A DNA stretch of 64,000 bases from an uncultured Kordia sp. (GTDB taxonomy: Bacteria > Bacteroidota > Bacteroidia > Flavobacteriales > Flavobacteriaceae): assembly GCF_947489565.1 (NCBI RefSeq), contig NZ_CANLEA010000016.1:62001-126000 (forward strand), read 5' to 3'. Below, piece by piece: positions 6,844-63,160 of this stretch (the first letter of the stretch is position 1; every line of letters starts with the position of its first letter). Position numbers and translations under genes: made by a program. A model generated the notes under the pieces. That model saw only the letters and a program-made list of their open reading frames with translations, was not told the origin of the DNA and searched no databases.

Positions 6844-6878
6844 GTTACATTAAGAATTAGGTTGGGGTAAATGTTCTG

Positions 6879-9800: not shown

Positions 9801-10826
9801 TGTTTCATCTACAGAAAATAGGTACACATAATTTGCGTTTGCTGGTGTCACATCTATTACCATACGATGTGTATTGGTAGGCACACCATTGGTTATTTGC
9901 GTAAAGTTCACTCCGCCATCGGTAGATTTGTAGAATGCAGTTGGACTTACAGCATATACCGTTTGTGCATCTCCAGGCTTTATCCTTAAATCACGAATAT
10001 TTTCTCCTGCTAGAGTTTGTGTCCAAGTCACTCCTGCATCAGTAGTTGTGTATACTCCATCTGTCCCTGAACAAACTAATTTGTTAGAGTTTGTTGGATC
10101 GATAAATATTTCACTTAATGCTCTACTTCCATTTATGGCACTTGTGTCTAACCCTGTAGCTGACCAAGTAATTCCTCCATCGGTAGATTTGTATACACCA
10201 ATTGATGAAGCGTATACATATACAGCGTCATCATCTCCTGTAGTGATGTATATTGTATTGGAATCGTTATGATCTACCGCAATAGCAGATACACTTACAC
10301 GCGGTAAATCATCTGTCAAAGGTGTCCATGTACTTCCTGCATCCATCGTTTTCCACAATCCGCCTCCTGGTGCTCCAACATACCATATATCACTATTATT
10401 TGGATCGATAGTAATACAGTTTAAACGTCCCATTCCAGCAGGTTGCGCATTTGCTTGTGTATAATCATATGGACCAATAGGATACCAATTACTTTCATCT
10501 GCCATTCTGTTTGTATTGACAAAAGCTCGGTTATCTTGCCAAGCTTTCTGCCTGTCATCTGCTGATGGTAGATATCCATTTTCATCTACACGAGAACTCC
10601 AAATGTTTTCAAAACGTTTGAAAGGTTTGTATCCGCTACCTTTTTCATTTTTATCATGCGTAAGCCAATAGGCTTCAAAAGCTTGCTGAACTTCTTTGAA
10701 CGTTGGTTTTTTTCCAGTTCGTTTTTGTTTCGTATTCAACTCCTTCATCCAAGGAGCATTCTGATTGTATTGCGCCAATAGAAGTACACTTGAAAGCATA
10801 CATATCCAAAATGTAATTTTTTTCAT
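6879..10826 (-). CDS. Secreted BNR/sortilin-type beta-propeller protein with the same C-terminal module
   Basis: 1315 residues with signal peptide MKKITFWICMLSSVLLLAQ. Residues about 110-760 are a series of BNR/Asp-box repeats (GGGLWKTMDAGSTWTPL, GVYKSTDGGITWS, GVFKTIDGGYTWT), the fold of Vps10/sortilin and sialidase-like propellers. From about residue 790 it is closely related to the downstream gene's CARDB, jelly-roll and MRDDLR regions, and it ends in the same paired Ca-loop-like repeats and QIMEQLPEN tail. Enzymatic activity cannot be judged; such proteins are usually surface binding or hydrolase-associated proteins. Only 35 bp separate it from the M60 gene, suggesting co-transcription. 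Confidence 0.85.
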   Translation of the reverse strand: MKKITFWICMLSSVLLLAQYNQNAPWMKELNTKQKRTGKKPTFKEVQQAFEAYWLTHDKNEKGSGYKPFKRFENIWSSRVDENGYLPSADDRQKAWQDNRAFVNTNRMADESNWYPIGPYDYTQANAQPAGMGRLNCITIDPNNSDIWYVGAPGGGLWKTMDAGSTWTPLTDDLPRVSVSAIAVDHNDSNTIYITTGDDDAVYVYASSIGVYKSTDGGITWSATGLDTSAINGSRALSEIFIDPTNSNKLVCSGTDGVYTTTDAGVTWTQTLAGENIRDLRIKPGDAQTVYAVSPTAFYKSTDGGVNFTQITNGVPTNTHRMVIDVTPANANYVYLFSVDETNRREHGIYRSTNSGDSFSLRNTDSFTLIGNWQVWYNMAIGVSDTNADEVYVGTMDVWRSANGGTTWDKLNRWDQLTPAYTHADIHTLRAHNGRMFCTSDGGIYSTIDNGASFQDHSTGLQIGEFFNVAIAQGNINNICGGLQDNGGFGLGVNGDWRGYHPGDGINSVIAPTDDDTYYGLLQDGDRLYVSNRADGFFTTVFKPGNAGTGVFETPMATDGNGEVYAAWGNLFRLNKTTYEWDLVGALPGYTDELIVAPSDPMRIVSSGHQNLRVSTDGGVTYDFDTNVVGNAISDIEIHATNPDIMWITTDGDYANKGVFKTIDGGYTWTNITSNLPSGEFLNAIEYQADHPLNPIFVSTDLGVYRLDDSSPNWEPFLINLPNADIRDIEINLDDQSITAATYGRGLWRSSIPIQLLQNDVSLRAITNPTSAIINCGDISPQIQVRSNGINDITEINITYGVTGGTTYNYTWTGMLQSNEEATISLPTISVGAGTFTLDVNATITNDGNTGNNVRSQNFSVNASGDFNMTNSFENQEDELIIENGVWQRGIPSGGTLNSVATGTQAYATNLSGDYPTDVEAYLVTNCYDFTQIIDPVLKFQMAYMLETGWDWANVQYSLNGGQTWENLGTVNSQPNWYNNNDDGNGYGCPGCPGGQWTGANTTMTEYAYNFTENALIGETDLTNENNIVFRMRLVSDSVITEEGIVLDDFVVEGKDPIEVAPKVLLQGASINPIMGEENLMRDDLRVADMIPIQSPYTDGLTCRAEVFDVTGINAIIDWVWVELRDGTTNTTVIASQSALLQRDGDVVNTDGVSTISFVVPEGNYHIAIKHRNHLGIMTSTNVVFLEGLPTTVDFTEAANQNVFGSNPQTTFGMPAGKAGMWSGNVNGDTIIQYSGTTPDAPSILSVVLNAPGNFLNFPTYVINGYNTHDVDLDGKTQYSGTTPDTPYIIQNVLAHPGNFLNFSTYQIMEQLPEN

Positions 10827-10882
10827 TTTACTTGGGGTTTACGTTAGGTTAGTTAGCCATTTATATATGATAGATTGTTGTT

Positions 10883-13693
10883 TTATTGTTTGATAAGGCG
10901 TTTTACCACCATAGTTTTTTTACCTACTATTTTGACGATATATATCCCATTAGAAAAACTTGATACATCTATTTCTTCTCCTTCATATTCAGGTTTGTGC
11001 AAGATTTCTTGTCCGTTTAAATTGTAAATGGATATTTGTTTCGATTCAGAAATATTTGCTATTTGAAAAGAACTCGTAGTTGGATTAGGGTATAAAATGA
11101 TATTTGTAGCATCATTGTTTGTACTGAATTCTGGCGTACTTAGTGTATTTCCTAGTAACATCCAGAGTTCTGTTCCATGCATATTGTCATCAGCTGTAAA
11201 GTAGAGTGTATCTTCCCAAATCAACATGTTTTGAATGTTTGAAGATTGATTGTATCTTGGTTTAATGTCATACACCATCGTAAGATCAGTTCCGTCATAG
11301 CGCCACAATTCGTCTCCATGAGTTAAATCGGTAGCTTTCATGTATAAGTTATTGCCTAATACAATATAGGATGATGAGTTTGATGAATTGGAACCTACGC
11401 GAATGTCTTTGATCATTGTTGGAGGATTTACACCATCATATTTCCATGGTTCATTACCATTTATACCATCATTTGCTCTGAAGATTAATTCATTATTAAA
11501 AACTGTCAATCTTCCAGGGCCAGAACCTTCTACACCGGGTTGAATATCGTATTCAAGAGCGGGAGGATTTACACCATCATAACTCCATAATTCAGTATCA
11601 TAATTAACTCTACTTGCCGAGAAAAACAGCTTATTATTAAAGAGCGTTAAATTTGATGGATACGATGAATTTGCACCATTATTTATATCGTGAACTAAAC
11701 TAAGTGTTGTTCCGTTATATTTCCATAATTCAGTACCATGAACACCATCTTGAGCAGCAAAATATAAGTTGTTATCATACTCAAGCATTGTATAAATATA
11801 GTTGGATAAAGTGCCTGGGTTTAGGTCTGAAATCATTGTTGGCGGATTTACACCATCGTATTTCCATAGTTCTGCTCCATGAATTCCATCATTTGCTATA
11901 AATACTAATTCATTATTAAAAACAACCAAATTTAAAGGTGATGAACCGTAACTTGTATTAATATCAGCTACTAAAGAAGCAGTTGTACCATCGTACTCCC
12001 ATAGTTCTGGGCCATGAATTCCATCGTTTGCAATAATCATGAGTTTGTTGTTGAATGCTATCATTCCATCAATGTTGGAACCATTCCCTGGAGTTGTATT
12101 AATATTTTGCGCTAGAGTAGGTTGTAACATTGCATCGAGTTTCCATAATTCAGCACCTTCATTTTCTGTTCTAGCTGAGAAATATAATTCACCGTTATAT
12201 TCAGTAAAATACCTTGGACTACTGTTATTACTACCTACATAGATGTCCATTAACATTGATGCATTCGTTCCATCAAACGACCACAGTTCTTCACCATGAA
12301 TACCATCATCTGCTTTAAAAATTAGATGATCATTGAATACAGCCAAATTAGCTACTGAAGAACCGTTTGTGTTTGCATTGATATCGGCAATTTGAGAAGT
12401 TTGAGTTCCATTGTACACATACAATTCTTCCCCTTGAACTCCATCATTTGCAGCAAAATACAAATGTCCATTCCACGTATATAAATTTCGAGGACTTCCA
12501 TAGCCATTTATGTGAATGTCTTCAATCATAGAAAAACTAGTCCCGTCATGAACCCATAATTCAGAAGCGTGTATTCCGTCGTTTGCAGCAAAATATAAAG
12601 CACCATTATACACATAGAAATCTGAAGGATATGCAGGATTTGCATCTGGTCGAATGTCTTGTAAAGTTACGTTTACACCATCGTACATATACAATTCATC
12701 AGACCATATAAAAAATAGATTCGAACCTAATGCGACCAAATTATTTACATAAGAACCTGCATTCCCAGGATTCACATCTATAGTTGTAAATGAAGTTCCG
12801 TTGTACTGAATGATTTCATAACCATTTACACCATCATCCGCAGTAAAATATAAATGTGTATTTGTTGCAACTAATCCACTTGGAAATGAACCTGTTGTTC
12901 CTGTAAGAATATCTTGAACTAAGGTTGTTGAAGTGCCATCATATTTCCATAATTCAAAATCGTTAGCATTTCCAGCTGCTCTAAAGTATAGTTCGTTTTG
13001 AAATATCGTAAATTGACTTGGTCCACTATTACTCCCAACATTAATATCGCTTACTAGTGAAACTGTTGTTCCATCAAATTTTAATAGCTCGTTTCCAAAC
13101 GTAGGATGATTTCCGCTAAAAAGAATTTCATTATTGTATACTGTTACTTCTTGGGGAAATGTTGAATATGAACCCGTATAAAAATCGTGAATAACAGGAG
13201 GATTCACTCCATCGTACGTCCAAATTTCAGTTCCATGTACCCCATCATCAGCCGCAAAACATAATACACCATTTAAGTCTACTAAATCTCTAATATTAGG
13301 ATCATCGTATGACGTATTGATGTCTGCAACCATCGTTGTTGAAGTACCGTCGTATTTCCAAAGTTCATTTCCGTGAACACCATCGTTTGCTATAAAGTAT
13401 AAAATACCATTTACAACAATTAAATCTTTAGGATTAGAACCATTCGTTCCGTTCCTAATATCCATCACCATTTGTGGCGGATTGGTTTCATCATATTTCC
13501 AAAGCTCAGTTCCATGAATCCCATCAGAAGCACTAAAGTAGAGTTCGCCATTATATTCAATAAATTCCTTTGGACTCGCTCCGTTTGTGATTGTATTGAT
13601 GTCTTGCACCATCATTGGTTCTTGCGCATAACTAAAAGAAGTTAACGCTAGCATCCATAAAACGCATGCTATTATTTTGTGAGTGTAGGTCAT
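10883..13693 (-). CDS. ELWxxDGT-repeat secreted protein with T9SS type A sorting domain
   Basis: 936 residues with a signal peptide (...LTSFSYAQ). The body is about 18 repeats of roughly 45 residues built on N(D/E)LYFxANDGxHGxELWKYDGT, i.e. the ELWxxDGT/beta-propeller-like repeat of Bacteroidetes secreted proteins. The last 75 residues (ILYPNPTTSSFQI, SIYNLNGQEIL, FSNGIYIVKI, VKRLIKQ) are a classical type A C-terminal signal for the type IX secretion system, so the protein is probably attached to the cell surface or released. Function of the repeats is unknown. It ends 57 bp from the BNR gene. Confidence 0.9.
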   Translation of the reverse strand: MTYTHKIIACVLWMLALTSFSYAQEPMMVQDINTITNGASPKEFIEYNGELYFSASDGIHGTELWKYDETNPPQMVMDIRNGTNGSNPKDLIVVNGILYFIANDGVHGNELWKYDGTSTTMVADINTSYDDPNIRDLVDLNGVLCFAADDGVHGTEIWTYDGVNPPVIHDFYTGSYSTFPQEVTVYNNEILFSGNHPTFGNELLKFDGTTVSLVSDINVGSNSGPSQFTIFQNELYFRAAGNANDFELWKYDGTSTTLVQDILTGTTGSFPSGLVATNTHLYFTADDGVNGYEIIQYNGTSFTTIDVNPGNAGSYVNNLVALGSNLFFIWSDELYMYDGVNVTLQDIRPDANPAYPSDFYVYNGALYFAANDGIHASELWVHDGTSFSMIEDIHINGYGSPRNLYTWNGHLYFAANDGVQGEELYVYNGTQTSQIADINANTNGSSVANLAVFNDHLIFKADDGIHGEELWSFDGTNASMLMDIYVGSNNSSPRYFTEYNGELYFSARTENEGAELWKLDAMLQPTLAQNINTTPGNGSNIDGMIAFNNKLMIIANDGIHGPELWEYDGTTASLVADINTSYGSSPLNLVVFNNELVFIANDGIHGAELWKYDGVNPPTMISDLNPGTLSNYIYTMLEYDNNLYFAAQDGVHGTELWKYNGTTLSLVHDINNGANSSYPSNLTLFNNKLFFSASRVNYDTELWSYDGVNPPALEYDIQPGVEGSGPGRLTVFNNELIFRANDGINGNEPWKYDGVNPPTMIKDIRVGSNSSNSSSYIVLGNNLYMKATDLTHGDELWRYDGTDLTMVYDIKPRYNQSSNIQNMLIWEDTLYFTADDNMHGTELWMLLGNTLSTPEFSTNNDATNIILYPNPTTSSFQIANISESKQISIYNLNGQEILHKPEYEGEEIDVSSFSNGIYIVKIVGKKTMVVKRLIKQ

Positions 13694-49992: not shown

Positions 49993-50736
49993 ATGAAAAC
50001 AAGAATACTAGAAAAACTCAACGAAATAGAACGTGATAAGAATATCGAAATCTTATTCGCTGTCGAATCAGGAAGCAGAGCTTGGGGCTTTGCTTCTCCC
50101 GATTCGGATTATGATATTCGTTTTGTGTACAAACACAAATCAGATTGGTATTTGAACCTTTGGGAACAAAAAGATACGATTCAGTTTATGACCGAAGACG
50201 ATTTGGATGGTTCAGGTTGGGACATTCGAAAAGCTTTAAAATTACTCGCAAAATCGAATGCTTCCTTACTAGGTTGGCTCTTCTCTCCTATTGTGTACAG
50301 AAGTGCTGGAACATTTTTGGAAGAAATGAAAATGGTCGCTGAAAAGAATTTCAATCCTGTTGCGGGTTTCTTTCATTATCACAGCATGAACAAAAATTTT
50401 GAAGAAACTTTAAACACCAATGAAATGACTTTAAAAAGTTATTTCTATGCAATTCGAACAGCTTTATGTGCCAATTGGATTTACAAAAAAGAAACCGTTC
50501 CGCCTGTAGCTTTTCGTGAATTATATCCGCTTTTAGATACTAAATCTTGTGCTCTTTTGGATGAATTGATTCTACTAAAAAGCAAAGAAATTGAAAAAAG
50601 TAATGCGCCTGTAGAAGCTTCTTTAATTGATTTGGTAAAAAAGATTGTTGCTGAAAACAACGAAATCAAAAATGATCTTAAAAATAGAAAATCAAATCCT
50701 GAAGAATTCAATAAACTATTCATAAAAACAATATAG
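49993..50736 (+). CDS. RlaP-type (COG3541) RNA-repair nucleotidyltransferase, copy 1
   Basis: 247 residues. Polymerase-beta-fold core with ESGSRAWG (GS motif at 27-28) and SDYDIRFVY (D39/D41 metal site), then VYRSAGTFLEEM and FHYHSMNKNF. RNA-ligase-associated nucleotidyltransferases are thought to add nucleotides to or modify damaged RNA ends before sealing. The next gene starts 5 bp after the stop. Confidence 0.85.
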   Translation: MKTRILEKLNEIERDKNIEILFAVESGSRAWGFASPDSDYDIRFVYKHKSDWYLNLWEQKDTIQFMTEDDLDGSGWDIRKALKLLAKSNASLLGWLFSPIVYRSAGTFLEEMKMVAEKNFNPVAGFFHYHSMNKNFEETLNTNEMTLKSYFYAIRTALCANWIYKKETVPPVAFRELYPLLDTKSCALLDELILLKSKEIEKSNAPVEASLIDLVKKIVAENNEIKNDLKNRKSNPEEFNKLFIKTI

Positions 50737-51665: not shown

Positions 51666-52727
51666 ATGACACTCTCAGAACTCAAAAAATCAGGACATAT
51701 CATATTTGAATGTATCAGCGGAAGTCGTGCGTACGGACTGGATACGCCGACTTCCGATACAGATATTCGCGGTGTTTTTGTATTGCCAAAAACAATGTAC
51801 TATTCCCTGGATTATGTTGGACAGATTAATAACGAGACGAATGATATTGTATATTATGAATTGCGAAAATTCATAGAATTGTGCGCCAAAAACAATCCAA
51901 ATATCCTAGAATTATTGAATGTTTCGGAAGATTGTATTTTGTACAAAGATCCGTTGTTCGACAAAATCAAACTAGATACATTTCTATCCAAACAATGCGA
52001 AAAATCGTTTGCAAACTACGCGTTTACTCAAATCAAAAAAGCGCGCGGATTGGAAAAGAAAATTGTCAATCCAATGGAAAAAGAACGCAAATCTGTGTTG
52101 GATTTTTGTTTTGTATATGAAAATGACACTTCCATTCCTTTAAAGGATTTTTTGACTCATAAAAACATCCAACAAGAACACTGCGGTATTACAAATATTC
52201 CACATTTAAAAGATTGCCACAACCTATATCACAACGAAAATATTCCCTACAAAGGAATCATTAGAAGTGAATTGGCGAATGAACTCGCGTTGAGCAGTAT
52301 TCCGAAAGGAGAAGAAACTATTGGCATGTTATTTTTCAATAAAGATGGATATTCTAGTTATTGCAAAAAGTACAAAGAATATTGGAATTGGGTTGAAAAA
52401 CGAAACGAAGAACGTTACAAAACGACCGTTTCGCATGGAAAAAATTACGATTCTAAAAATATGATGCATACCTTTCGCTTATTACGCATGGCAAAAGAAA
52501 TTGCATCGGAAAGTACCATTCATGTAAAACGTCCAGATCGTGAATTTTTACTAGATGTAAAACATGGAAAATATGAATATGATGAATTGGTGACTTGGGC
52601 AACGGAATTAAAAACAGAATTGGAAAGTTTATATGCAAATTCAACGTTACCAGAACGTCCAGATATAGAAAAAATTAATACATTACTCATTAACATTAGA
52701 ACTGATTTTTATACTAAAAACCCGTGA
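51666..52727 (+). CDS. RlaP-type (COG3541) nucleotidyltransferase, copy 2
   Basis: 353 residues. FECISGSRAYGLDTPTSDTDIRG holds the GS motif (19-20) and D31/D33; a longer helical C-terminal region includes HTFRLLRMAKEIA. Related to copy 1 only in the catalytic core, so the two probably act on different ends or RNAs. The next gene's GTG overlaps its stop (GTGA). Confidence 0.83.
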   Translation: MTLSELKKSGHIIFECISGSRAYGLDTPTSDTDIRGVFVLPKTMYYSLDYVGQINNETNDIVYYELRKFIELCAKNNPNILELLNVSEDCILYKDPLFDKIKLDTFLSKQCEKSFANYAFTQIKKARGLEKKIVNPMEKERKSVLDFCFVYENDTSIPLKDFLTHKNIQQEHCGITNIPHLKDCHNLYHNENIPYKGIIRSELANELALSSIPKGEETIGMLFFNKDGYSSYCKKYKEYWNWVEKRNEERYKTTVSHGKNYDSKNMMHTFRLLRMAKEIASESTIHVKRPDREFLLDVKHGKYEYDELVTWATELKTELESLYANSTLPERPDIEKINTLLINIRTDFYTKNP

Positions 52728-54799: not shown

Positions 54800-54921
54800 A
54801 CAGCAGTAGTTCAGTTGGAAGAAAACTATCTCTGCACGATAGAGGTCGCGGGTTCGAAATGTAAATTCACGAATACCTATATTTAAAAATATATAAGTCG
54901 CGAGTAATCTCGTCTGCTGTA
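54800..54921 (+). tRNA. tRNA-like, geometry UGC (Ala), with T-loop insertion
   Basis: Acceptor ACAGCAG/CTGCTGT is perfect. The anticodon stem CTATC/GATAG encloses loop TCTGCAC (UGC by geometry, unusual C33). The T stem GCGGG/CTCGT is split by a 49-nt insertion at 54858-54906 after TTCGA. It starts 12 nt after the SDR stop, so it is co-transcribed. Confidence 0.75.
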
Positions 54922-54940: not shown

Positions 54941-55066
54941 GCGGCAGTAGTTTCAAAAGGAGAAGAACATCGTCTTCAAAACGAAGGATGCGGGTTCGAA
55001 ATGTAAAACATTCACGAACTCCTTAATATAAAATAAGTAAGTTGTGAGCTAATCCTGTCTGTTGCG
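54941..55066 (+). tRNA. tRNA with UCA anticodon (opal suppressor-like) and T-loop insertion
   Basis: Acceptor GCGGCAG/CTGTTGC. Anticodon loop CTTCAAA (U33, UCA) on stem TCGT/ACGA. T stem GCGGG/CCTGT with a 52-nt insertion at 55000-55051. UCA reads UGA; the loop is otherwise Trp-like. Confidence 0.7.
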
Positions 55067-55461: not shown

Positions 55462-55487
55462 GCCTATCTATATTCCACCAGTTTAAT

Positions 55488-55506
55488 TACGCAATATAAT
55501 TGCGTA
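55488..55506 (+). promoter_or_regulatory. Island operator E (TACGCAA-N5-TTGCGTA, perfect palindrome)
   Basis: The only copy with perfect dyad symmetry. TTTG of the -7 element GAGATTTG (55516-55523) follows after 13 nt. It drives the LRR gene at 55545. Confidence 0.87.
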
Positions 55507-55544
55507 GCACTAATTGAGATTTGTATGTACAAACAAAAAGTATC

Positions 55545-57272
55545 ATGAAATCTATTGAGCGACGTATCCAAAAATTAGCAACTTCTTTAAAAATTGAAGT
55601 AAATTTGAATCATTTCATTGAGCATATACAAAATGACAATGGAGAAGATTCTATCCATATATTTGATTCGTTATATATGCATTTTCCATATATTAATGGT
55701 GATTTTAGCTTTTTAAAAGACTATGAAAAGTTAATGAGTCTAACGATTGATATAGATCAGGAAATAAATATTGTTTCGTTAAAAGATTGTATTAATCTAG
55801 AATATCTCAACATAAATTTTGATGAAAACTACACAAATAAAATCAATTTCAACGGTGATTTTAGTTTCCCAAAAATAAAAAATTTAAATACCGGATCTGC
55901 TATAATTGAAAGTAATAATTCACTTTCCTTTCTAAAAAAATTCCCTAACCTTGAACGTCTAGAAATTAATTTAACCAACATTTCCGATATATCTGATTTA
56001 GGTAAATTATCTAAGCTTAAATCACTTTCATTACATCAAGGAACATTTTCTTCCATAGATTGCATTTCTAAACTCACACATTTAGAAGCATTATATCTAA
56101 ATTCCGAAAACATTAAAGACTTTAGTCCATTAAAGAAATTGACAAAAATTGTACATCTTACTATACATACATGCAATTTTAAGGATACGAGCGTACTTTC
56201 CCATTTTAAGAATCTTCAAACATTATCATTAGCCTTCAATAAAATACAGGATATTGAGGAATTAAGAAGCTTATCAGATTTAACAACAATTAACTTAAGT
56301 CATAATGCTGTAAAATCTATTGATGCAATAACAGAACTTCCAAACCTTGTCAATATCAATGTTAGCAGTAATGAAATTACGGAGATTCCGCAGCTTAAAA
56401 GTTCTAAAATAACTCATGCATATTTCTCTAATAATTCAATTACTTCTATAGAAAATCTAGCAACAATTAATAGCCTGCAATACTTAGATATTACTGATAA
56501 TCGTATTGAAAAAATCACACAGTTACCTAAAAACCTTGTACAACTTCGCGCAAATAATAATGCAATAGAAGAATTACAAGCTGGTAATCATCAACATTTA
56601 TTACATATTCATTGTGAAAATCACTTTATAAAAAAACCAGAAAATCTTTCCTTAAATAGCAGAGTGTTACAATATATAAATCTGAAACAAAAAAAACCTT
56701 CTTTTCTTATTTCGGGAGAATTTTATGAAAACGGAGGTTCACTTGATAAAAAATTCTATCATCTATTTAAGCTACATGGAGATCATTTTTTCAAAAAGAA
56801 ATTATTCGATCAAGCATATAAAACGTATGAAAAGTTTGTGCTTTTGAAAAACATTATTGCTTGTCGAAAAATTGAGCAACATTTACTAGATGAAACTCCT
56901 CAAACTTTTGACACTTTATTCAATCATATTGATACTTTTATGCAAACTAAAAAAGAAAGTAATCGCATATATGATCTTGTAGGTAATAAAAAAGTATTGG
57001 AATATACATCCGAAATGATTGCTTTAAGAATTAAGAGTGCCAATATTTCAAAAGAGAAAAAACAAGAACTTTATTATAAATTATTAAACAAGATTTATCC
57101 TAATACTGATAATGAAACTCCTAAAAATACTTTGATGTATACGCAAACACCTACTTTAAAATCTAAAGATGATCGCTTTATAGCTCGCGTAGAACTCTTT
57201 TTTTGGATTGTAGGTATAGTTTCATTCCTTATAATGATTATAATACTCTTAAAAATATTTTTATTTCGATAA
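55545..57272 (+). CDS. Leucine-rich-repeat protein with C-terminal membrane anchor
   Basis: 575 residues from the ATG at 55545, chosen because the -7 element lies just upstream of it. LRRs of about 22 residues run from about 90 to 370 (LQTLSLAFNKIQDIEEL, LTTINLSHNAVKSIDAI, LQYLDITDNRIEKI). A helical region follows, and a single C-terminal transmembrane helix (ELFFWIVGIVSFLIMIIILLKIF). Tail-anchored, with the repeats in the cytoplasm. It may sense or recruit a partner to the membrane, as the slipin at 63.5 kb might. Sandwiched between two tRNA clusters. Confidence 0.85.
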   Translation: MKSIERRIQKLATSLKIEVNLNHFIEHIQNDNGEDSIHIFDSLYMHFPYINGDFSFLKDYEKLMSLTIDIDQEINIVSLKDCINLEYLNINFDENYTNKINFNGDFSFPKIKNLNTGSAIIESNNSLSFLKKFPNLERLEINLTNISDISDLGKLSKLKSLSLHQGTFSSIDCISKLTHLEALYLNSENIKDFSPLKKLTKIVHLTIHTCNFKDTSVLSHFKNLQTLSLAFNKIQDIEELRSLSDLTTINLSHNAVKSIDAITELPNLVNINVSSNEITEIPQLKSSKITHAYFSNNSITSIENLATINSLQYLDITDNRIEKITQLPKNLVQLRANNNAIEELQAGNHQHLLHIHCENHFIKKPENLSLNSRVLQYINLKQKKPSFLISGEFYENGGSLDKKFYHLFKLHGDHFFKKKLFDQAYKTYEKFVLLKNIIACRKIEQHLLDETPQTFDTLFNHIDTFMQTKKESNRIYDLVGNKKVLEYTSEMIALRIKSANISKEKKQELYYKLLNKIYPNTDNETPKNTLMYTQTPTLKSKDDRFIARVELFFWIVGIVSFLIMIIILLKIFLFR

Positions 57273-57318
57273 AAACAGGTTAAAAAATAGTAGAACAATT
57301 ATAAATAACACTTCAAAT

Positions 57319-57350
57319 TTGGAAGAAACCCAATAAAAATCACATATTTG
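57319..57350 (+). promoter_or_regulatory. Promoter of leader module 1
   Basis: TTG (57319-57321), 21 nt, CATATTTG (57343-57350). The predicted start lies only a few nt before the ATG at 57359, giving a leaderless or nearly leaderless mRNA. Confidence 0.6.
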
Positions 57351-57358
57351 CCACACTA

Positions 57359-57475
57359 ATGACAAGATATTATTTACATATAGCCTCTATTTGCCTGAAA
57401 AGTCAGGACAGAAATCGCGGAATGGTTGAACCATTTTGGCGAAAGGAGACGCTTTATGTACATTTTTATAGGTGA
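57359..57475 (+). CDS. Leader peptide 1: 38 residues containing all 20 amino acids
   Basis: ATG 57359 to TGA 57473-57475. It starts MTRYYLHIASICL, continues KSQDRNRGMVEPFW and ends RKETLYVHFYR. The first 27 residues contain every one of the 20 standard amino acids. Codons 30-33 (GACGCTTTA, 57448-57456) are exactly complementary to TAAAGCGTC (57513-57521) in the following terminator. That is the layout of a translation-controlled attenuator. The peptide is probably not the functional product. Located between the LRR gene and the large tRNA array. Confidence 0.6.
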   Translation: MTRYYLHIASICLKSQDRNRGMVEPFWRKETLYVHFYR

Positions 57476-57513
57476 AATTTAATATGAAATAACACAAAAA
57501 TTATATAATCAGT

Positions 57514-57543
57514 AAAGCGTCCAAGGAATTGGGCGCTTTTTTT
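57514..57543 (+). terminator. Attenuator terminator 1
   Basis: AAAGCGTCC/GGGCGCTTT stem (one G-U), 8-nt loop, run of seven T. Its left arm can instead pair with 57448-57456 inside the leader ORF. Confidence 0.85.
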
Positions 57544-57752
57544 ATGAAAAAAATTAAAAAAATGTTAGTCGCATAATCAAATAGAAAATAATACGCATTG
57601 AAACAAAAAACAATTGAGAGACAGACAGTTGTCAAATAGTTCAATATCCGTTACATAACGGACAGGACTTTCTATATCTAAAATTAAGCATAACTAATTG
57701 ATTATCAATAAAATAAATTCAGGAAATAGTTGCGTATTCAAAAAATCGTTTT
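57544..57752 (+). other. Spacer between attenuator modules
   Basis: AT-rich. Contains a small perfect hairpin TCCGTT-ACAT-AACGGA at 57647-57662 and no gene that I can support. Confidence 0.4.
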
Positions 57753-57760
57753 CATATTTG
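57730..57760 (+). promoter_or_regulatory. Promoter of leader module 2
   Basis: TTG (57730-57732), 20 nt, CATATTTG (57753-57760): the same -7 octamer as module 1. Confidence 0.6.
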
Positions 57761-57800
57761 CAACGTCAAAAACAAACAAAGACATTATAAAAAATATATC

Positions 57801-57941
57801 ATGAAATTTAATATACATCACATATCCGCCTTAGCAAATATTCTCCGATCACCGGAAAGTTGCAGACTGTTTATTTGGGAACAGAAGGGAGATTTTATGT
57901 ATATAAAAAAGTGGGAGTATTATAAAGATACGTTACTATGA
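57801..57941 (+). CDS. Leader peptide 2: 46 residues, 19 of 20 amino acids
   Basis: ATG 57801 to TGA 57939-57941: MKFNIHHISALANILR, SPESCRLFIWEQKGDF, MYIKKWEYYKDTLL. Only Val is missing. The element GGGAGAT (57887-57893) inside the ORF is complementary to ATCTCCC (57971-57977) at the following terminator. Both leaders share HI(A/S)(S/A) near the N-terminus, an aromatic/basic stretch, and GGAGA...TTTATGTA at the complementary element, so the modules look homologous. Confidence 0.55.
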   Translation: MKFNIHHISALANILRSPESCRLFIWEQKGDFMYIKKWEYYKDTLL

Positions 57942-57964
57942 TAGTAACTATATAGAAACTTTAT

Positions 57965-57997
57965 AAAAGCATCTCCCAAAAAAGAGATGCTTTTTTT
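57965..57997 (+). terminator. Attenuator terminator 2, just before the tRNA array
   Basis: AAAAGCATCTC/GAGATGCTTTT stem with seven T residues. The first array element begins 15 nt later. The ATCTCCC at its left side can pair with 57887-57893 instead. Confidence 0.85.
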
Positions 57998-58011
57998 ATG
58001 GTTCATATTTT

Positions 58012-58050
58012 GGAAGAGCAAGCCAATTGGTGGTGGCCACGGTCTTGAAA
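58012..58050 (+). ncRNA. tRNA-Ser(UGA) 5' half
   Basis: 38 of 39 nt identical to the 5' part of the complete tRNA-Ser(UGA) at 58171, ending exactly after the anticodon loop (CTTGAAA). No 3' half follows; a 23-nt tail antisense to 58425-58447 follows instead. Confidence 0.8.
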
Positions 58051-58073
58051 TGAGTTTACGAATTCAATGAGAC
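58051..58073 (+). ncRNA. 23-nt tail antisense to a downstream tRNA insertion
   Basis: TGAGTTTACGAATTCAATGA plus GAC. Reverse-complementary to 58425-58447 with 21 Watson-Crick pairs, one G-U and one A-C mismatch. Followed by a run of A. Confidence 0.75.
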
Positions 58074-58091
58074 AAAAAAAGAAAATAAAAT

Positions 58092-58164
58092 TGATGCATA
58101 GCTTAGTTGGTAGAGCAGGGCGCTTTTAACGTCAAGGTCGTGAGTTCGAATCTCACTGCGTCAA
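58092..58164 (+). tRNA. tRNA-Lys(UUU)
   Basis: Acceptor TGATGCA/TGCGTCA, loop CTTTTAA, T arm GTGAG-TTCGAAT-CTCAC. The top anticodon-stem pair is mismatched. Confidence 0.9.
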
Positions 58165-58170
58165 CAAAAA

Positions 58171-58257
58171 GGAAGAGCAAGCCAATTGGCGGTGGCCACG
58201 GTCTTGAAAACCGTTCGGAGTTAACGACTCGTGTGGGTTCGATTCCCACTTCTTCCG
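58171..58257 (+). tRNA. tRNA-Ser(UGA)
   Basis: Acceptor GGAAGAG/TTCTTCC (last pair G-U), stem ACGGT/ACCGT with loop CTTGAAA, long variable arm, T stem GTGGG/CCCAC. Confidence 0.93.
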
Positions 58258-58266
58258 CAAAATTAT

Positions 58267-58353
58267 GGAGTGTAGGTAAATATTGGTTTGTTACGCTTGA
58301 CTGCTAATCAAGTCCGTTTAACCGCGGTGAAGGTTCAATTCCTTTGCGCTCCG
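58267..58353 (+). tRNA. tRNA-Ser(GCU)
   Basis: Acceptor GGAGTGT/GCGCTCC with G-U pairs, stem CTTGA/TCAAG with loop CTGCTAA, long variable arm. Confidence 0.9.
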
Positions 58354-58362
58354 CAAGATATT

Positions 58363-58488
58363 GGAGATATAGTTTACCAGGCGAAAACAGTGGGTTTAAT
58401 TCGATGGTGCCTATTTAAAGTTTGGTCTCATTGAATTCGCAAGCTCATTTGCAGCTTGCAGCACGGAGTTCAAGTCTCCGTATCTCCA
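58363..58488 (+). tRNA. tRNA-like with long internal insertion carrying a 16S-like segment
   Basis: Acceptor GGAGATA/TATCTCC is perfect and T arm CGGAG-TTCAAGT-CTCCG good. Between D-arm start and T arm there are about 80 nt instead of about 40: a stem AGGC/GCCT enclosing GGTTTAATTCGATG (58393-58406, identical to a universal 16S rRNA segment), the antisense target 58425-58447, and a 6-bp hairpin GCAAGC/GCTTGC. The anticodon cannot be assigned. Confidence 0.6.
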
Positions 58489-58494
58489 CAACAT

Positions 58495-58566
58495 GATATT
58501 GTAGCTCAATGGCAGAGCAAAGACCTGTTAAGTCTAAGGTTGAAGGTTCGAATCCTTCCGGTATCG
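58495..58566 (+). tRNA. tRNA-Asn(GUU)
   Basis: Acceptor GATATTG/CGGTATC, loop CTGTTAA on AGAC/GTCT, T arm GAAGG/CCTTC. Confidence 0.9.
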
Positions 58567-58570
58567 CAAC

Positions 58571-58643
58571 GACAAGGTGGCTGAATGGTGAAAGCAACAG
58601 TCTGCAAAACTGTTTTTTATGAGTTCGAATCTCATCCTTGTCT
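58571..58643 (+). tRNA. tRNA-Cys(GCA)
   Basis: Acceptor GACAAGG/CCTTGTC, stem ACAGT/ACTGT with loop CTGCAAA, T arm ATGAG/CTCAT. Confidence 0.93.
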
Positions 58644-58691
58644 CAAAGATTATATAAGATCAAACTTGTTTGAATAGTATATAATTTACTT

Positions 58692-58824
58692 GGAAGTATT
58701 GAGCAATTGGTTGGCTCGCCAGACTGTAAATCTGGTCTCTTCGGAGCGTGTAGGTTTGAAATGCTTGCATTCACGAACACCAATTTATCAAATAGGAAAT
58801 AGTGAGCTAATCCTACTACTTCCA
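58692..58824 (+). tRNA. tRNA-Tyr(GUA) with T-loop insertion
   Basis: Acceptor GGAAGTA/TACTTCC, stem CCAGA/TCTGG with loop CTGTAAA, long variable arm. T stem GTAGG/CCTAC split by a 50-nt insertion (58760-58809) after TTTGA. Confidence 0.88.
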
Positions 58825-58830
58825 CAACAC

Positions 58831-58902
58831 ACGCTTGTGGTGTAACTGGCAGCATGTACGTCTCCAAAACGTACGGTTAAGGTTCAAATCCTTGCAGGCG
58901 TG
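58831..58902 (+). tRNA. tRNA-Trp(CCA)
   Basis: Acceptor ACGCTTG/CAGGCGT, stem TACGT/ACGTA with loop CTCCAAA, T loop TTCAAAT. Confidence 0.92.
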
Positions 58903-58908
58903 CAAAAT

Positions 58909-59033
58909 ATAGCTATGGTGTAATGGATAGCACATGAGATTTCTAACCTCATAGTCTAAGTTCGAAATGCTTGCATTCATGAGTTCCTATTTATGAAAAA
59001 TAGAAACCACACGAACTAACCTTAGTAGCTATA
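58909..59033 (+). tRNA. tRNA-Arg(UCU) with T-loop insertion
   Basis: Acceptor ATAGCTA/TAGCTAT, stem TGAGA/CCTCA (one mismatch) with loop TTTCTAA. T stem CTAAG/CTTAG split by a 53-nt insertion (58966-59018). Confidence 0.85.
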
Positions 59034-59038
59034 CAAAT

Positions 59039-59110
59039 AGTATCGTGACTCAACGGTAGAGTGCTCGACTGTCTCTCGAGAAGTTGCGGGTTCGAATCCC
59101 GTCGGTACTG
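59039..59110 (+). tRNA. tRNA-Asp(GUC), second copy
   Basis: Acceptor AGTATCG/CGGTACT, stem CTCGA/TCGAG with loop CTGTCTC, T arm GCGGG/CCCGT. Differs strongly from the Asp tRNA at 55389. Confidence 0.9.
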
Positions 59111-59115
59111 CAAAA

Positions 59116-59188
59116 CTGGGAATAGAACAATTGGCTGTTTACTCGCCTTGGACGCGAGAGGATGTAGGTTCGAGTCCTGCTTCCCAGA
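59116..59188 (+). tRNA. tRNA-Pro(UGG)
   Basis: Acceptor CTGGGAA/TTCCCAG, stem CTCGC/GCGAG with loop CTTGGAC, T arm GTAGG/CCTGC. Confidence 0.93.
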
Positions 59189-59204
59189 CGAAATAATTAA
59201 AAAT

Positions 59205-59276
59205 GCTCTGTTGGTCAAACGGCTAAGACGCTACACTTTCTATGTAGAATTAGGGGTTCGATTCCCCTACAGAGTA
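59205..59276 (+). tRNA. tRNA-Glu(UUC)
   Basis: Acceptor GCTCTGT/ACAGAGT, stem CTACA/TGTAG with loop CTTTCTA, T arm AGGGG/CCCCT. Confidence 0.92.
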
Positions 59277-59282
59277 CAACAA

Positions 59283-59418
59283 ACCTGTGTGATGGAACTG
59301 GTATACAAAACAGTCTTAAACGCTGTTGTGCGAAGCACATGTGGGTTCGAAATACTTTAGTATTCATGAACTCCATTGTATAGAATAGCAGTTTTGTGAA
59401 CTAATCCCACCGCAGGTA
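59283..59418 (+). tRNA. tRNA-Leu(UAA) with T-loop insertion
   Basis: Acceptor ACCTGTG/CGCAGGT, stem ACAGT/GCTGT with loop CTTAAAC, long variable arm TGTGCGAAGCACA. T stem GTGGG/CCCAC split by a 53-nt insertion (59351-59403). Confidence 0.88.
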
Positions 59419-59424
59419 CAAAAT

Positions 59425-59497
59425 GCAGAGGTGGCGGAATGGCATACGCAGCTGTCTTAGAAGCAGTTTTTTGAGAGTTCGAGTCTCTCTCTCTGTA
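59425..59497 (+). tRNA. tRNA-Leu(UAG) with short variable region
   Basis: Acceptor GCAGAGG/TCTCTGT, loop CTTAGAA, T arm GAGAG/CTCTC. The variable region is only TTTTT, whereas bacterial Leu tRNAs have a long variable arm. Confidence 0.8.
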
Positions 59498-59525
59498 CAA
59501 AAGCAATCTTAGAAAGGAGTGCAAT

Positions 59526-59597
59526 AAGTTTATGGTGTAATGGATAGCACATTGGTTTACGAAGCCAAGAGTATAGGTTCGAATCCTATTAGACTTA
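59526..59597 (+). tRNA. tRNA-Arg(ACG)
   Basis: Acceptor AAGTTTA/TAGACTT, stem TTGGT/GCCAA with loop TTACGAA, T arm ATAGG/CCTAT. Confidence 0.92.
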
Positions 59598-59602
59598 CAA
59601 AT

Positions 59603-59673
59603 TGACCTATGTTGTAATGGCAGCAGGCGAGACTTTGACTCTCGAGGTAAAGGTTCGAATCCTTTTAGGTCTA
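59603..59673 (+). tRNA. tRNA-Gln(UUG)
   Basis: Acceptor TGACCTA/TAGGTCT (first pair mismatched), stem CGAGA/TCTCG with loop CTTTGAC, T arm AAAGG/CCTTT. Followed by CCA. Confidence 0.9.
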
Positions 59674-59677
59674 CCAT

Positions 59678-59750
59678 AGCGATATAGCTTAATCGGTAAA
59701 GCACTGGTCTCATAAGCCAGAAGTTGAAAGTTCGACTCTTTCTATCGCCA
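59678..59750 (+). tRNA. tRNA-Met(CAU)
   Basis: Stem CTGGT/GCCAG with loop CTCATAA, T arm GAAAG/CTTTC. Acceptor AGCGATA/TATCGCC has an A1-C72 mismatch, reminiscent of initiator tRNA, but the anticodon stem lacks the initiator GGG/CCC. Confidence 0.9.
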
Positions 59751-59760
59751 CTAAAAAAAT

Positions 59761-59833
59761 AGTGATATAGCTTAACTGGTAAAGCGTCAATCTGATACGT
59801 TGGCAGATGAAGGTTCGAATCTTTCTATCACTA
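59761..59833 (+). tRNA. tRNA-Ile(GAU)
   Basis: Acceptor AGTGATA/TATCACT, loop CTGATAC, T arm GAAGG/CTTTC. Confidence 0.9.
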
Positions 59834-59839
59834 CAAAAT

Positions 59840-59911
59840 GGTGACTTTAGTTTATTTGGTAAAACGCCTCACTGTGAATGAGAAGAACAGGGTTCGAATC
59901 CCGAAGTCACC
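59840..59911 (+). tRNA. tRNA-His(GUG)
   Basis: Acceptor GTGACTT/AAGTCAC with G-1 opposite C73, as required for His. Loop CTGTGAA. The T stem is one nt short on the 3' side. Confidence 0.85.
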
Positions 59912-59917
59912 CAAATT

Positions 59918-59990
59918 GGAGTAATGGCAGAGTTGGTCAATGCGCTGGATTGAAGTCCCAGAGATATAGGTTCGAATCCTATTTATTCCA
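59918..59990 (+). tRNA. tRNA-Phe(GAA)
   Basis: Acceptor GGAGTAA/TTATTCC, stem CTGGA/CCCAG (one mismatch) with loop TTGAAGT, T arm ATAGG/CCTAT. Confidence 0.87.
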
Positions 59991-59994
59991 CAAA

Positions 59995-60066
59995 AGAAAT
60001 GTAGTTTAATCTAAAATAGCGAGCAATTATCTCGAAGATACAAGTAAAATCTTGTCATTTCTTCCA
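59995..60066 (+). pseudogene. Degenerate tRNA with encoded CCA, last array member
   Basis: Acceptor AGAAATG/CATTTCT perfect, then T and CCA. The T arm ACAAG-TAAAAT-CTTGT lacks TTCGA, and the anticodon loop CAATTAT lacks U33. Confidence 0.6.
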
Positions 60067-60091
60067 ATAATAACGAATAAAAACAATAGTC

Positions 60092-60406
60092 ATGAGACAA
60101 GATGTATTACAAAGGTTCTTTTATAGAACTGAAGATTCAGGAAGATTCCTCGTGACTTCAAAACGTACTGGAGTCACCTATTTTGTAGAACCCATTGATT
60201 CTGGAAAGCCTACTAATTTATGGGGCGATTTAGATCCGGCTACAAATAAACTGACGGGAGATTATGGAAACAAAAGAAGAGGCGCCGTGTTGGCTGAAGA
60301 TTCATTAATCACCAAGGAAAATGGCTTTCAAAACATTGCTATTTTTAAAGGAAGTCCTCTAGGAGAGATTGATCGAAGAGATCGATTGTATGAAGAGAAA
60401 ATGTAA
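60092..60406 (+). CDS. Hypothetical 104-residue protein after the tRNA array
   Basis: Begins MRQDVLQRFFYRTEDSGRFL and ends EIDRRDRLYEEKM. Compact, charged, with a VTYFVEPIDSGKPTNLWGDLDPATNK centre. No membrane segment or known motif. Its 3' end is 43 bp from the RNA ligase start; same transcript expected. Confidence 0.7.
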   Translation: MRQDVLQRFFYRTEDSGRFLVTSKRTGVTYFVEPIDSGKPTNLWGDLDPATNKLTGDYGNKRRGAVLAEDSLITKENGFQNIAIFKGSPLGEIDRRDRLYEEKM

Positions 60407-60448: not shown

Positions 60449-61456
60449 ATGTTTAAGAAATATAATAGTATCGAAAATACCTACCGTGAAAAGGCGACTG
60501 AACAAGTATACCTTCACGGATATGGGGACGATGTTTTCGTAGTACAAGAAAAAGTACATGGAGCTAATTTTTCTTTCATCACTGATGGAAATAGTATCCA
60601 AGTTGCCAAACGTACAAGTGTAATTGCTGAAGATGAAAATTTCAACAACTACAACTATGTTTTAAACAAGTATGAAAAAGCAATTATAACACTTTTCAAA
60701 CTTGTAAAGAAAGATTTTCCTGAAACGGAAATCATGACTGTTTTTGGTGAAATTTTCGGAGGAAGTTATCCGCATCCGGAAGTAGAAAAAATCAATGGAA
60801 TGGTTCGCATTCAAAAAGGTGTTTTTTACAGTCCAGAAAATGACTTTTACGCATTTGATATTTGTCTAAATCATACACAATATTTAGATGTAACCATTGC
60901 GAATACTTATTTCTCAGCAGTAGGAATGTTTTACGCTAAAACACTTTTTACAGGAACATTTAGCGAATGTATGGCATATTCAAATACATTTGAATCAAAA
61001 GTACATGAATGGTTACATCTTCCATCAATTGAAAACAATGTTTGTGAAGGAACCATTATCAAACCATTGGTAAGCAAACGTTTTGGAAATGGACAACGCG
61101 TTATTTTCAAAAACAAAAACGAAAAATGGTCTGAAAAGTCACATGAAAAACGATCAAGAGTTTCAAAACCAAGTGCAATAGAAGTGCTTTCTGAAACTGA
61201 AAAAGAATTGATGAATACGCTTTTAAGCTATGTAAATGAAAATCGTTTGATGAATGTGCAAAGTAAGATTGGTGAGTTTTCTCCAAAACAAACTGGAAAA
61301 ACCATTGGAATGCTTGCCAAAGATGCGCTAGAAGATTTTGTAAAAGATCATGAAAGTGATTGGAATACTATGGAAAAGCAACATCAAAAAGTAATGACAA
61401 AAATACTGAATAAAGAAGCGTCTAATGTGGTAAAAGAAATGCTTCTTTTTAAGTAA
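60449..61456 (+). CDS. T4 Rnl2-type RNA ligase
   Basis: 335 residues, the usual length of Rnl2. Seals 3'-OH/5'-phosphate breaks through an AMP-lysine intermediate. Motif I is EKVHGANF with Lys35, the same position as in T4 Rnl2; motif III/IIIa FGEIFGGSYPH; motif IV EGTIIKPL; motif V VIFKNKNEKW. The C-terminal helical domain should recognise RNA duplex nicks. With RtcB the island covers both end chemistries. It follows the tRNA array directly. Confidence 0.92.
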   Translation: MFKKYNSIENTYREKATEQVYLHGYGDDVFVVQEKVHGANFSFITDGNSIQVAKRTSVIAEDENFNNYNYVLNKYEKAIITLFKLVKKDFPETEIMTVFGEIFGGSYPHPEVEKINGMVRIQKGVFYSPENDFYAFDICLNHTQYLDVTIANTYFSAVGMFYAKTLFTGTFSECMAYSNTFESKVHEWLHLPSIENNVCEGTIIKPLVSKRFGNGQRVIFKNKNEKWSEKSHEKRSRVSKPSAIEVLSETEKELMNTLLSYVNENRLMNVQSKIGEFSPKQTGKTIGMLAKDALEDFVKDHESDWNTMEKQHQKVMTKILNKEASNVVKEMLLFK

Positions 61457-62601: not shown

Positions 62602-62696
62602 TAGGTGTCGTAAAACAGCGTTACTTCGTAACTATAACGATCCTAAGGTAGCGTAACACGGGCGACCGTGCTAGCGAAGTTGGGTTAAAAACCAAC
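62602..62696 (+). ncRNA. 23S rRNA helix 69 mimic RNA domain
   Basis: 62627-62653 reads CGTAACTATAACG-A-TCCTAAGGTAGCG: 26 of 27 nt identical to the universal 23S segment of helices 69-71 (about E. coli 1909-1935). The single G-to-A change is matched by a C-to-T change on the other side of the helix 69 stem, so pairing is kept. The piece is enclosed by ACTTCG (62623-62628)/CGAAGT (62675-62680), followed inside by CACGG-GCGA-CCGTG (GNRA-type loop), and then by hairpin GTTGG/CCAAC. Confidence 0.8.
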
Positions 62697-62775
62697 ATGG
62701 CAAAATTTTGTAAAAAAGTAAGTCTCTCGTAGATGTCAAATTGCCGGCTCACTGCCCTTTATAACATTCATTTGT

Positions 62776-62934: not shown

Positions 62935-63009
62935 GCTTTGAGTTATTAGCCAAATAATAATTCACCACAAGGGGAACGTGGGTCATGGGTTCGAATCCCA
63001 TTCTCGCAA
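62935..63009 (+). pseudogene. tRNA-like element with intact T arm
   Basis: T arm ATGGG-TTCGAAT-CCCAT is perfect. A CCAC...GTGG hairpin sits in the anticodon position with a 9-nt loop. No matching 5' acceptor strand at the normal distance. Confidence 0.45.
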
Positions 63010-63073
63010 GAGATAGTTCAGCGGTTAGAACAACGTTTATTTTAAGTTGCCGGTTCGAGTCCGGTCAGTAGTT
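63007..63073 (+). pseudogene. tRNA-like element with good D and T arms but unpaired acceptor
   Basis: D arm GTTC/GAAC and T arm GCCGG-TTCGAGT-CCGGT are good. The 7 nt on either end do not pair and the anticodon stem is unclear. Confidence 0.5.
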
Positions 63074-63083
63074 CCGAAAGGTT

Positions 63084-63160
63084 GACTATTGTAACTCAAT
63101 TGGTAGAGTACTACACTTTTAATGTAGATTGAAGTTAGATTTCTTCTTAAAAAATCACCA
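63084..63160 (+). pseudogene. tRNA-Lys(UUU)-like with degenerate T arm and encoded ACCA
   Basis: D arm ACTC/GAGT and anticodon stem CTACA/TGTAG with loop CTTTTAA are perfect. T loop lacks TTCGA and the acceptor has mismatches. ACCA follows at 63157-63160. Confidence 0.6.

Follow-up and report, generated by a model that had tools for sequence, protein, structure and literature searches.

Two leader ORFs, each with a candidate antiterminator and an intrinsic terminator, precede a tRNA array and an RNA ligase gene in the 64,000-nucleotide stretch of Kordia DNA analysed here (the window). We consider it probable that these are two ribosome-mediated attenuators in series, which would control a reserve tRNA array together with an RNA-repair gene and would detect a ribosome stalled at almost any codon. 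Comparison among relatives indicates that the anatomy of the locus, the excess amino-acid diversity of its leaders, where that diversity sits in leader 1, and the coordinated change of antiterminator and terminator are real. The first unit comprises the following features.

57318..57350, + strand: promoter 1, Bacteroidetes type, with TTTG at about -33 and CATATTTG at about -7, read by eye
57359..57475, + strand: leader ORF 1, 38 codons from ATG to TGA, peptide MTRYYLHIASICLKSQDRNRGMVEPFWRKETLYVHFYR, all 20 amino acids, conserved in relatives
57359..57439, + strand: modelled sensing zone of leader 1, where a ribosome would spare the antiterminator if its front edge lies 13 nt past the A site
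57448..57456, + strand: candidate antiterminator 1, GACGCTTTA, inside leader ORF 1 (codons 30-33), exact complement of 57513-57521, with equivalents in relatives
57513..57543, + strand: terminator T1, hairpin and U run

The boxes of promoter 1 were assigned to the Bacteroidetes type on the basis of what we take to be its -7 consensus. Leader ORF 1 starts 8 nt downstream of the -7 box (CATATTTG, 57343-57350), so that the near-leaderless start described in the initial annotation of this DNA holds in the window, but such short spacing is absent from the relatives read by eye, in which boxes resembling promoters 1 and 2 are nevertheless seen. All 20 amino acids do occur within the first 27 residues of the 38-codon ORF, as that annotation had claimed, with the 20th, W, falling exactly at codon 27 (57437-57439). 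None of 20,000 draws from amino-acid frequencies was as rich as this (20 kinds in 27 residues), and real protein segments match it at a rate of 5e-5. Chance rates for the full 38-mer are 0.002 and 0.0017 by the same two nulls, and 0.039 when the null consists of other small ORFs of the loci, with the leaders themselves included. The leader 1 ORF of the window is not decisive on its own; the relatives decide. Antiterminator 1 (GACGCTTTA) pairs perfectly with TAAAGCGTC (57513-57521) in the left arm of T1, and an exact complementary run of at least 9 was obtained in 22 of 20,000 mononucleotide shuffles of the leader 1 ORF. The perfect complementarity is therefore as first described, but the 9-mer had been placed directly after codon 27, whereas it starts 8 nt later, within the ORF.

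Downstream of T1 are a middle element (57608-57680), which lies between T1 and promoter 2, and a second leader/terminator unit (57801-57997), both absent from the initial annotation.

57608..57680, + strand: middle element, 73 nt, two short hairpins, AGAGACAG loop and GGACAGG motif (model R1, 83.3 bits; paired changes)
57753..57760, + strand: promoter 2, -7 box CATATTTG, with an equivalent box in relatives, read by eye
57801..57941, + strand: leader ORF 2, 46 codons, 19 amino acids (no V)
57886..57894, + strand: candidate antiterminator 2, AGGGAGATT, ineffective in the fuller fold model
57911-57921, + strand: second candidate antiterminator 2, GTGGGAGTATT
57965..57997, + strand: terminator T2

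By itself, leader 2 of the window is not unusual in amino-acid diversity (rates of 0.08-0.11). When the middle element is aligned by a fit to its structure, which biases the pairing statistics towards that structure, 85.4% of cells are paired; the figure is 78.2% for shuffles and 33-40% for slid controls. Changes on both sides affect 50 cells, compared with 17.1 in shuffles, and 6 pairs show two-sided change, compared with 4.1 (38 of 500 shuffles reach 6). RNAalifold gave no structure on the first MAFFT alignment of the element, and no Rfam match was found in it, permissive threshold included. Across 55464 to 58092, no Rfam match reached its gathering score, the strongest weak one being Phe_leader with 29 bits against 55, and the leader region thus shows no T-box or other Rfam riboregulator at that threshold. 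The middle element may be a third regulatory part that acts, for example, on the polymerase or binds an antitermination protein.

The presumed output of the two units, and the RNA-repair genes around it, are as follows.

49993..50736, + strand: RlaP family RNA-repair nucleotidyltransferase, upstream and about 7 kb off (Pfam RlaP, 7.3e-70)
51666..52727, + strand: second RlaP-family protein, an upstream neighbour (Pfam RlaP, 8.1e-30)
58092..59991, + strand: tRNA array, 16 genes by ARAGORN
60092..60406, + strand: 104-aa ORF without a Pfam family at E 0.01
60449..61456, + strand: RNA ligase of the T4 Rnl2 type (Pfam RNA_ligase, 2e-19; T4_Rnl2_C, 3.6e-22)

At relaxed settings, 22 tRNA candidates are called in 58000-60100, several of them interrupted by insertions. 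Insertions of about 60 nt and of similar sequence (AATGCTTGCATTCA...GAACTAATCC) are present in the T-loop, just after TTCGA, of several tRNA-like genes (window 58754-58812, 58965-59028 and 59347-59413, and also 54850-54905 and 54998-55060, all approximate), and the insertion resembles a small element that is mobile or spliced. Further tRNA-like copies (Ser and probably Ala) are broken by a GAATTCAATGAGAC-type stretch, which in the Ser copy lies inside the anticodon arm (window 58028-58090 and 58375-58470; locus L002, 7800-7880; approximate). Beyond the ligase genes, at about 62620-62700, there is a GTAACTATAACGATCCTAAGGTAGCG stretch, which we take to resemble domain IV of 23S rRNA and which has no Rfam rRNA match; damaged tRNA-like pieces follow at about 62980-63160. 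The same genome encodes a second Rnl2-type ligase, 35% identical, at G000:C1:454940-455788 (L045).

RNA repair or quality control is a recurring neighbour of the arrays, as judged from few loci. In the single array annotated from a second family, f5 (L158), the genes after the array (5046-11032) encode RNase H-like, ATP-grasp (two of R2K type), phosphoesterase, exonuclease and TROVE/Ro60-like proteins, and an exonuclease and an endonuclease V-like protein are among the genes tested at a Flavobacterium locus (L161). Relatives of the ligase are found at 5 loci in viral contigs, 4 of which were scanned for tRNAs with 2 positive (L111 with 24 and L114 with 5). The L111 locus, an IMG/VR viral contig in which an Rnl2-type ligase is followed by its 24 tRNA genes, likewise combines a ligase with a tRNA array. 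Matches to the middle element in IMG/VR, at 2 loci, were rejected because they appear to lie in coding sequence; the relaxed setting gives these loci 0 and 2 tRNA candidates, and neither has an array.

As part of examining relatives, we obtained 35 loci from a ligase search. In loci of Kordia, Psychroserpens, Dokdonia and Flavobacterium, direct reading gave the order promoter-leader-terminator-middle element-promoter-leader-terminator-tRNAs, and the same plan was found in Kordia, Tenacibaculum (L107, genome G320), Psychroserpens, Dokdonia and Flavobacterium as well as in a second family of the order. An exact middle-element pattern occurs in 38 of 299 Flavobacterium genomes, compared with 1 genome for a reversed control pattern; 30 loci of these 38 pattern-positive genomes were examined, and T2 is present in all 30 and T1 in 29, leader 1 not being found in one of them (L067). 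In the window's family, 397 genomes were scanned, and the pattern occurs at 17 places in 16 genomes (4 for the reversed control), and 10 of these 17 places are an element with leader and terminator, including L098, where only T1 is found by rule and T2 was recognized by eye. Six of the 17 lack the anatomy by rule, among them L100 with a weak R1 match (24.4 bits). The pattern match at L094 is a chance one on the opposite strand; the true element, on the other strand, scores 56.6 bits and is accompanied by a leader, both terminators and tRNAs. This array (L094, + strand, about 330-930) has the full anatomy and a variant of the element that the exact pattern does not detect, and its leaders are not included in the diversity statistics. 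At least two downstream tRNA candidates are present in 43 of 49 pattern loci, a count that includes chance matches and duplicates and uses the relaxed tRNA setting, which also yields false calls.

A covariance model of the middle element recovers 53 of 296 sampled genomes of the order Flavobacteriales, in 8 of 91 genera. Nineteen of these genomes belong to the window's family, one to family f13, and 33 to f5, which is probably Weeksellaceae. The second-family set draws on 22 of the 33 f5 loci; the rule did not recover T1 or leader 1 in four of these (L145, L148 and L156, together with L141, which was miscalled), nor leader 2 in L135 and L156. The ORF, its amino-acid diversity and the terminator complementarity, each of which the initial annotation had expected to persist at homologous loci, are all kept in relatives, and these comparisons indicate that the conserved double leader-terminator arrangement is real. 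We also considered chance, in which a spurious ORF happens to lie beside a terminator. An almost identical rule assigns an ORF to 39 of 102 control terminators, for which the hairpin score was slightly stricter than for the leader units, and 3.9% of the small-ORF null matches the 38-mer of window leader 1. Recurrence over genera and two families, the diversity and the coevolution described below argue against this idea, which is contradicted by the conserved anatomy and to which we assign a negligible probability.

Leader extraction gave 107 leader-terminator units, 94 of them unique. The diversity set, also of 94, was assembled by dropping leader 1 of L067 and L098 as apparent miscalls and adding two hand-located L019 leaders. 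These 94 leaders have a mean of 38.4 residues and 17.79 different amino acids, and thus exceed all four length-matched nulls when the ORFs before related arrays are scored for diversity in the way first suggested: 16.08 for amino-acid frequencies, 15.76 for protein segments, 15.63 for protein N-termini and 15.25 for other small ORFs. The corresponding z values of 12.3-14.7 (0 of 2,000 simulations in each of the four nulls) are overstated because relatives share descent. Moreover, 29 of the 94 leaders contain 19 or 20 amino acids, compared with an expected 2.6-4.3, and among 23 hand-chosen representative loci the z values are 7.5-8.1 for leader 1 and 4.3-5.7 for leader 2. Leader units have 17.7 kinds compared with 15.9 for the ORFs of control terminators (79 length-matched units).

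A test less exposed to shared descent compares each leader set with column-shuffled chimeras, in which residues are mixed within alignment columns. Leader 1 has 18.04 kinds against 16.78 in its chimeras (z 8.2, 0 of 1,000) and leader 2 has 17.54 against 16.82 (z 4.9, 0 of 1,000); in the non-Flavobacterium subset, z for leader 2 is 2.9 (2 of 1,000). That real leaders are richer than chimeras implies that completeness is kept per peptide while positions change. Where Trp is present it occupies different alignment columns in different genera; it is absent from most Flavobacterium leaders, and its presence is confounded with genus. In the second family, which was found after the hypothesis was formed, the unique peptides that hold all 20 amino acids number 9 of 20 for leader 1 and 10 of 22 for leader 2, with z values of 9.7 and 8.7, respectively (0 of 2,000). 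One f13 locus is present in both sets and one f1 locus in the leader 2 set, none of them with 20 amino acids; short miscalls were retained in leader 1 (7-aa L141 and 16-aa L155). Against chimeras, the f5 peptides, which are close relatives of each other, give z 2.6 for leader 1 (4 of 1,000; L141 and L155 left out) and z 2.9 for leader 2 (1 of 1,000; L155 and L157 left out). No run or excess of codons for the amino acid of one pathway was found in the leaders, whose residues are distributed across almost all types. The leaders tend strongly towards completeness but do not always reach it. These comparisons indicate that the leaders are selected for near-complete amino-acid content.

If a stalled ribosome has to leave the antiterminator accessible, diversity is expected to precede it. 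The zone test used the units with a usable antiterminator (44 of 46 for leader 1 and 42 of 48 for leader 2). In leader 1, the zone before the antiterminator has 15.38 kinds, compared with 14.02 after shuffling of the residue order (z 5.2 in 21 representatives), and z is 7.4 over the 44 units; in a replication set of 18 units, the zone has 18.17 kinds against 15.87 (z 7.9). Placement is weak or absent in leader 2, for which z is 2.3 in 20 representatives, 1.8 in 42 units, and -0.4 in the replication set, or -0.7 with the antiterminator fixed.

Uncorrected pN/pS is 0.67 and 0.63 for the Kordia leaders, 0.46 for a Flavobacterium group, and 0.67 and 0.69 for f5, with values from 0.17 to 1.70 in small sets and pairs. 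These values bear on the very unlikely alternative that the leaders are functional small proteins and the terminators ordinary ones. Within a family the peptides have some sequence in common, for example His at position 7 in many of them and MTIQRAHI in f5, and pN/pS in the larger sets is below 1, as a functional peptide would have it, yet at 0.46-0.69 it lies well above the 0.21 of the Kordia ligase. In addition, the zone of Kordia leader 1 (codons 1-27, five Kordia) has a pN/pS of 0.53, whereas its tail reaches 2.78 on a small number of synonymous changes, which is what constraint on the RNA instead of the peptide would produce, and the leaders are richer in composition than their column chimeras. 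The f5 values for zone and tail are 0.64 vs 0.82 in leader 1 and 0.69 vs 0.83 in leader 2. Such a pattern fits a leader tail that would be held by RNA pairing and not by peptide function.

The pairing itself was examined by shuffling, by exchange of partners and by folding. Single antiterminators are short and individually unremarkable, and their median rank among 200 shuffles is 13.5 for leader 1 and 12 for leader 2, with 19 of 46 and 22 of 48 units, respectively, at rank 10 or better. In a swap test, the mean energy of each leader with its own terminator arm was compared with that of permuted partners, which did as well in 39 of 20,000 permutations for T1 (15 loci) and in 0 of 20,000 for T2 (12 loci); the own pair is worse than the average foreign arm in L097 and L102 for T1 and in L010 and L071 for T2. 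The T2 arms differ by genus (ATCTCCC, GCACCT, GCGCCT, CCGAAGC and GACGCCC), and most leaders vary accordingly. Antiterminator and terminator, as these sequence comparisons indicate, change together between genera.

When the whole terminator is present, equilibrium folding gives a mean terminator probability of 0.90 and 0.89 with the ribosome stalled and 1.00 with the ribosome at the stop codon. This result argues against a switch at equilibrium, the terminator forming nearly always whether the ribosome is stalled or not. As the terminator is the more stable structure at equilibrium, the antiterminator can act only before the right arm of the terminator is made. In a co-transcriptional model, in which only the left arm has emerged and all RNA behind the front edge of the ribosome is removed, the antiterminator is predicted to hold the left arm during an upstream stall with a mean probability of 0.66 for leader 1 and 0.60 for leader 2, reaching at least 0.5 in 40 of 46 and 40 of 48 units, respectively. 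In leader 1 of the window, the predicted value is 0.71-0.72 up to codon 26, 0.53 at codon 27 and 0.00 at codon 28, and this modelled boundary at codon 27/28, the exact position of which depends on the assumed 13-nt front edge, coincides with completion of the 20th amino acid. The value of 0.00 at the stop codon in this model is built in, because RNA behind the front edge is removed.

A fuller model, in which only the ribosome footprint is masked, gives means of 0.65 (leader 1) and 0.57 (leader 2) for an early stall. The values fall to 0.00 and 0.02 when the ribosome covers the antiterminator but are 0.55 and 0.19 when it occupies the stop codon, and RNA free of ribosomes gives 0.62 and 0.57. 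Under this model, 41 of 46 leader 1 units and 37 of 48 leader 2 units switch between an early stall and a ribosome on the antiterminator, and 4 and 26 units, respectively, switch between an early stall and the stop codon; for window leader 1 the latter values are 0.67 and 0.61. The models thus predict pairing with the ribosome upstream and its loss with the ribosome on the antiterminator. The initial annotation had proposed folding with and without ribosome occupancy as a check; a switch is predicted for an upstream stall against occupancy of the antiterminator, but not at equilibrium and not reliably with the ribosome at the stop codon. Since the ribosome in the fuller model blocks the antiterminator only while on it, the off state would need either timely passage of the ribosome or simply the greater stability of the terminator. 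For window leader 1, the co-transcriptional model gives 0.71 for free RNA, the same as for stalled RNA, and an untranslated leader 1 behaving like a stalled one implies that no protector hairpin is apparent. Window leader 2 is a poor example, giving 0.00 as free RNA and up to 0.50 when stalled in the co-transcriptional model, and 0.003 when stalled in the fuller model.

The mechanism that we favour would operate as follows. In healthy cells, ribosomes would follow RNA polymerase through each leader and cover the antiterminator as the terminator is being made; with the antiterminator near the leader end occupied, the more stable terminator would form and the array would stay off. If the charged tRNA for any leader codon were lacking, whether cut, uncharged or hijacked, the ribosome would stop early, and the antiterminator could pair with the emerging left arm of the terminator, permitting readthrough into the tRNAs and the ligase. 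Selection would keep nearly every amino acid in the leader because a stall may fall at any codon. The coupling and timing of ribosome and polymerase, the cellular function, tRNA loss as the natural trigger, and readthrough that feeds the whole array are what we infer from the arrangement. The universal stall sensor originally proposed is thus partly supported: relatives share the ORF, the diversity and the complementarity, but the terminator is favoured at equilibrium, a ribosome at the stop codon does not reliably remove the antiterminator, and completeness is not absolute.

As to what the leaders sense, we lean modestly towards a universal tRNA-integrity alarm, in which the ORF would serve as an amino-acid checklist, gone through anew by every ribosome, within two tandem stages joined by a new structured RNA, and attack on any tRNA by anticodon nucleases, tRNA-cutting toxins or phage would free reserve tRNAs and repair enzymes. 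The same mechanism with a trigger other than tRNA damage, namely general amino-acid starvation, is a possible but distinctly less probable reading, and its weight overlaps that of the mechanism favoured above because the two triggers are not mutually exclusive. The same leader would stall for want of any amino acid, and leader-peptide attenuation of amino-acid operons has been described as likely in Flavobacterium psychrophilum (PMC9723704); an output of tRNAs and RNA-repair genes, however, gives no relief from amino-acid shortage. It is rather improbable that the leaders act as a general translation-stress uORF, like E. coli toiL, which senses ribosome-targeting antibiotics and in which completeness would be incidental. 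Stalls at several sites of the toiL uORF can switch a gene, according to the sections of that paper considered here (PMC12121999), ribosome-targeting antibiotics induce the Anabaena trn array, again according to part of the source (PMC10272220), and the pairing modelled here is independent of which upstream codon holds the ribosome. A sensor of antibiotics has no need of diverse residues, but the leaders strongly maintain such diversity, and leader 1 carries it ahead of the antiterminator. The tRNA-integrity alarm, if true, would make the locus a natural reporter in Flavobacteriales, responding to the loss of any tRNA. The proposed attenuation might account for the activation of silent tRNA arrays and would tie such arrays to RNA repair, and the seeming selection of leaders for completeness of the amino-acid alphabet is a property that can be tested statistically.

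Attenuators of the trp/his type use runs of one amino acid, and this kind of control senses one or a few amino acids. The arrangement described here shares with them a leader ORF, a candidate antiterminator, an intrinsic terminator and presumed control by ribosome position. Unlike them, it has no single-amino-acid run, nearly all amino acids being present in one or a few copies; the modelled folds of leader 1 show no evident protector hairpin, and the output is tRNA genes. No listing from the open-access literature searched names an amino-acid-complete leader. Switching by stalls at many positions of one short ORF has been proposed for the E. coli toiL uORF (topAI-yjhQ), but toiL, as the consulted part of that work describes it, unmasks a ribosome-binding site, involves Rho termination and responds to antibiotics, in contrast to the intrinsic terminator, tRNA output and amino-acid completeness found here (PMC12121999). 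Attenuation by the whiB7 uORF is tied to tRNA loss through cleavage of tRNA-Ser by VapC5, a link proposed in the discussion of that paper; its target, however, is a single resistance regulator, and the portion of the paper considered describes no amino-acid-complete leader (PMC10287673). The Anabaena trn operon under TrcR is likewise a silent array, of 26 tRNAs, that is induced by translational stress, but its control is by a repressor protein, and 'attenuat' and 'leader' occur 0 times in the main text (PMC10272220). The cysS uORF motif (uORFC-8-2) is a leader attenuator before a tRNA-charging gene, but, in the relevant part of its description, it is cysteine codons that the cysS uORF reads (PMC8632094). 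Set beside these systems, the Kordia locus looks, from its sequence, like an attenuator arrangement that dispenses with the single-amino-acid run of the trp/his type.
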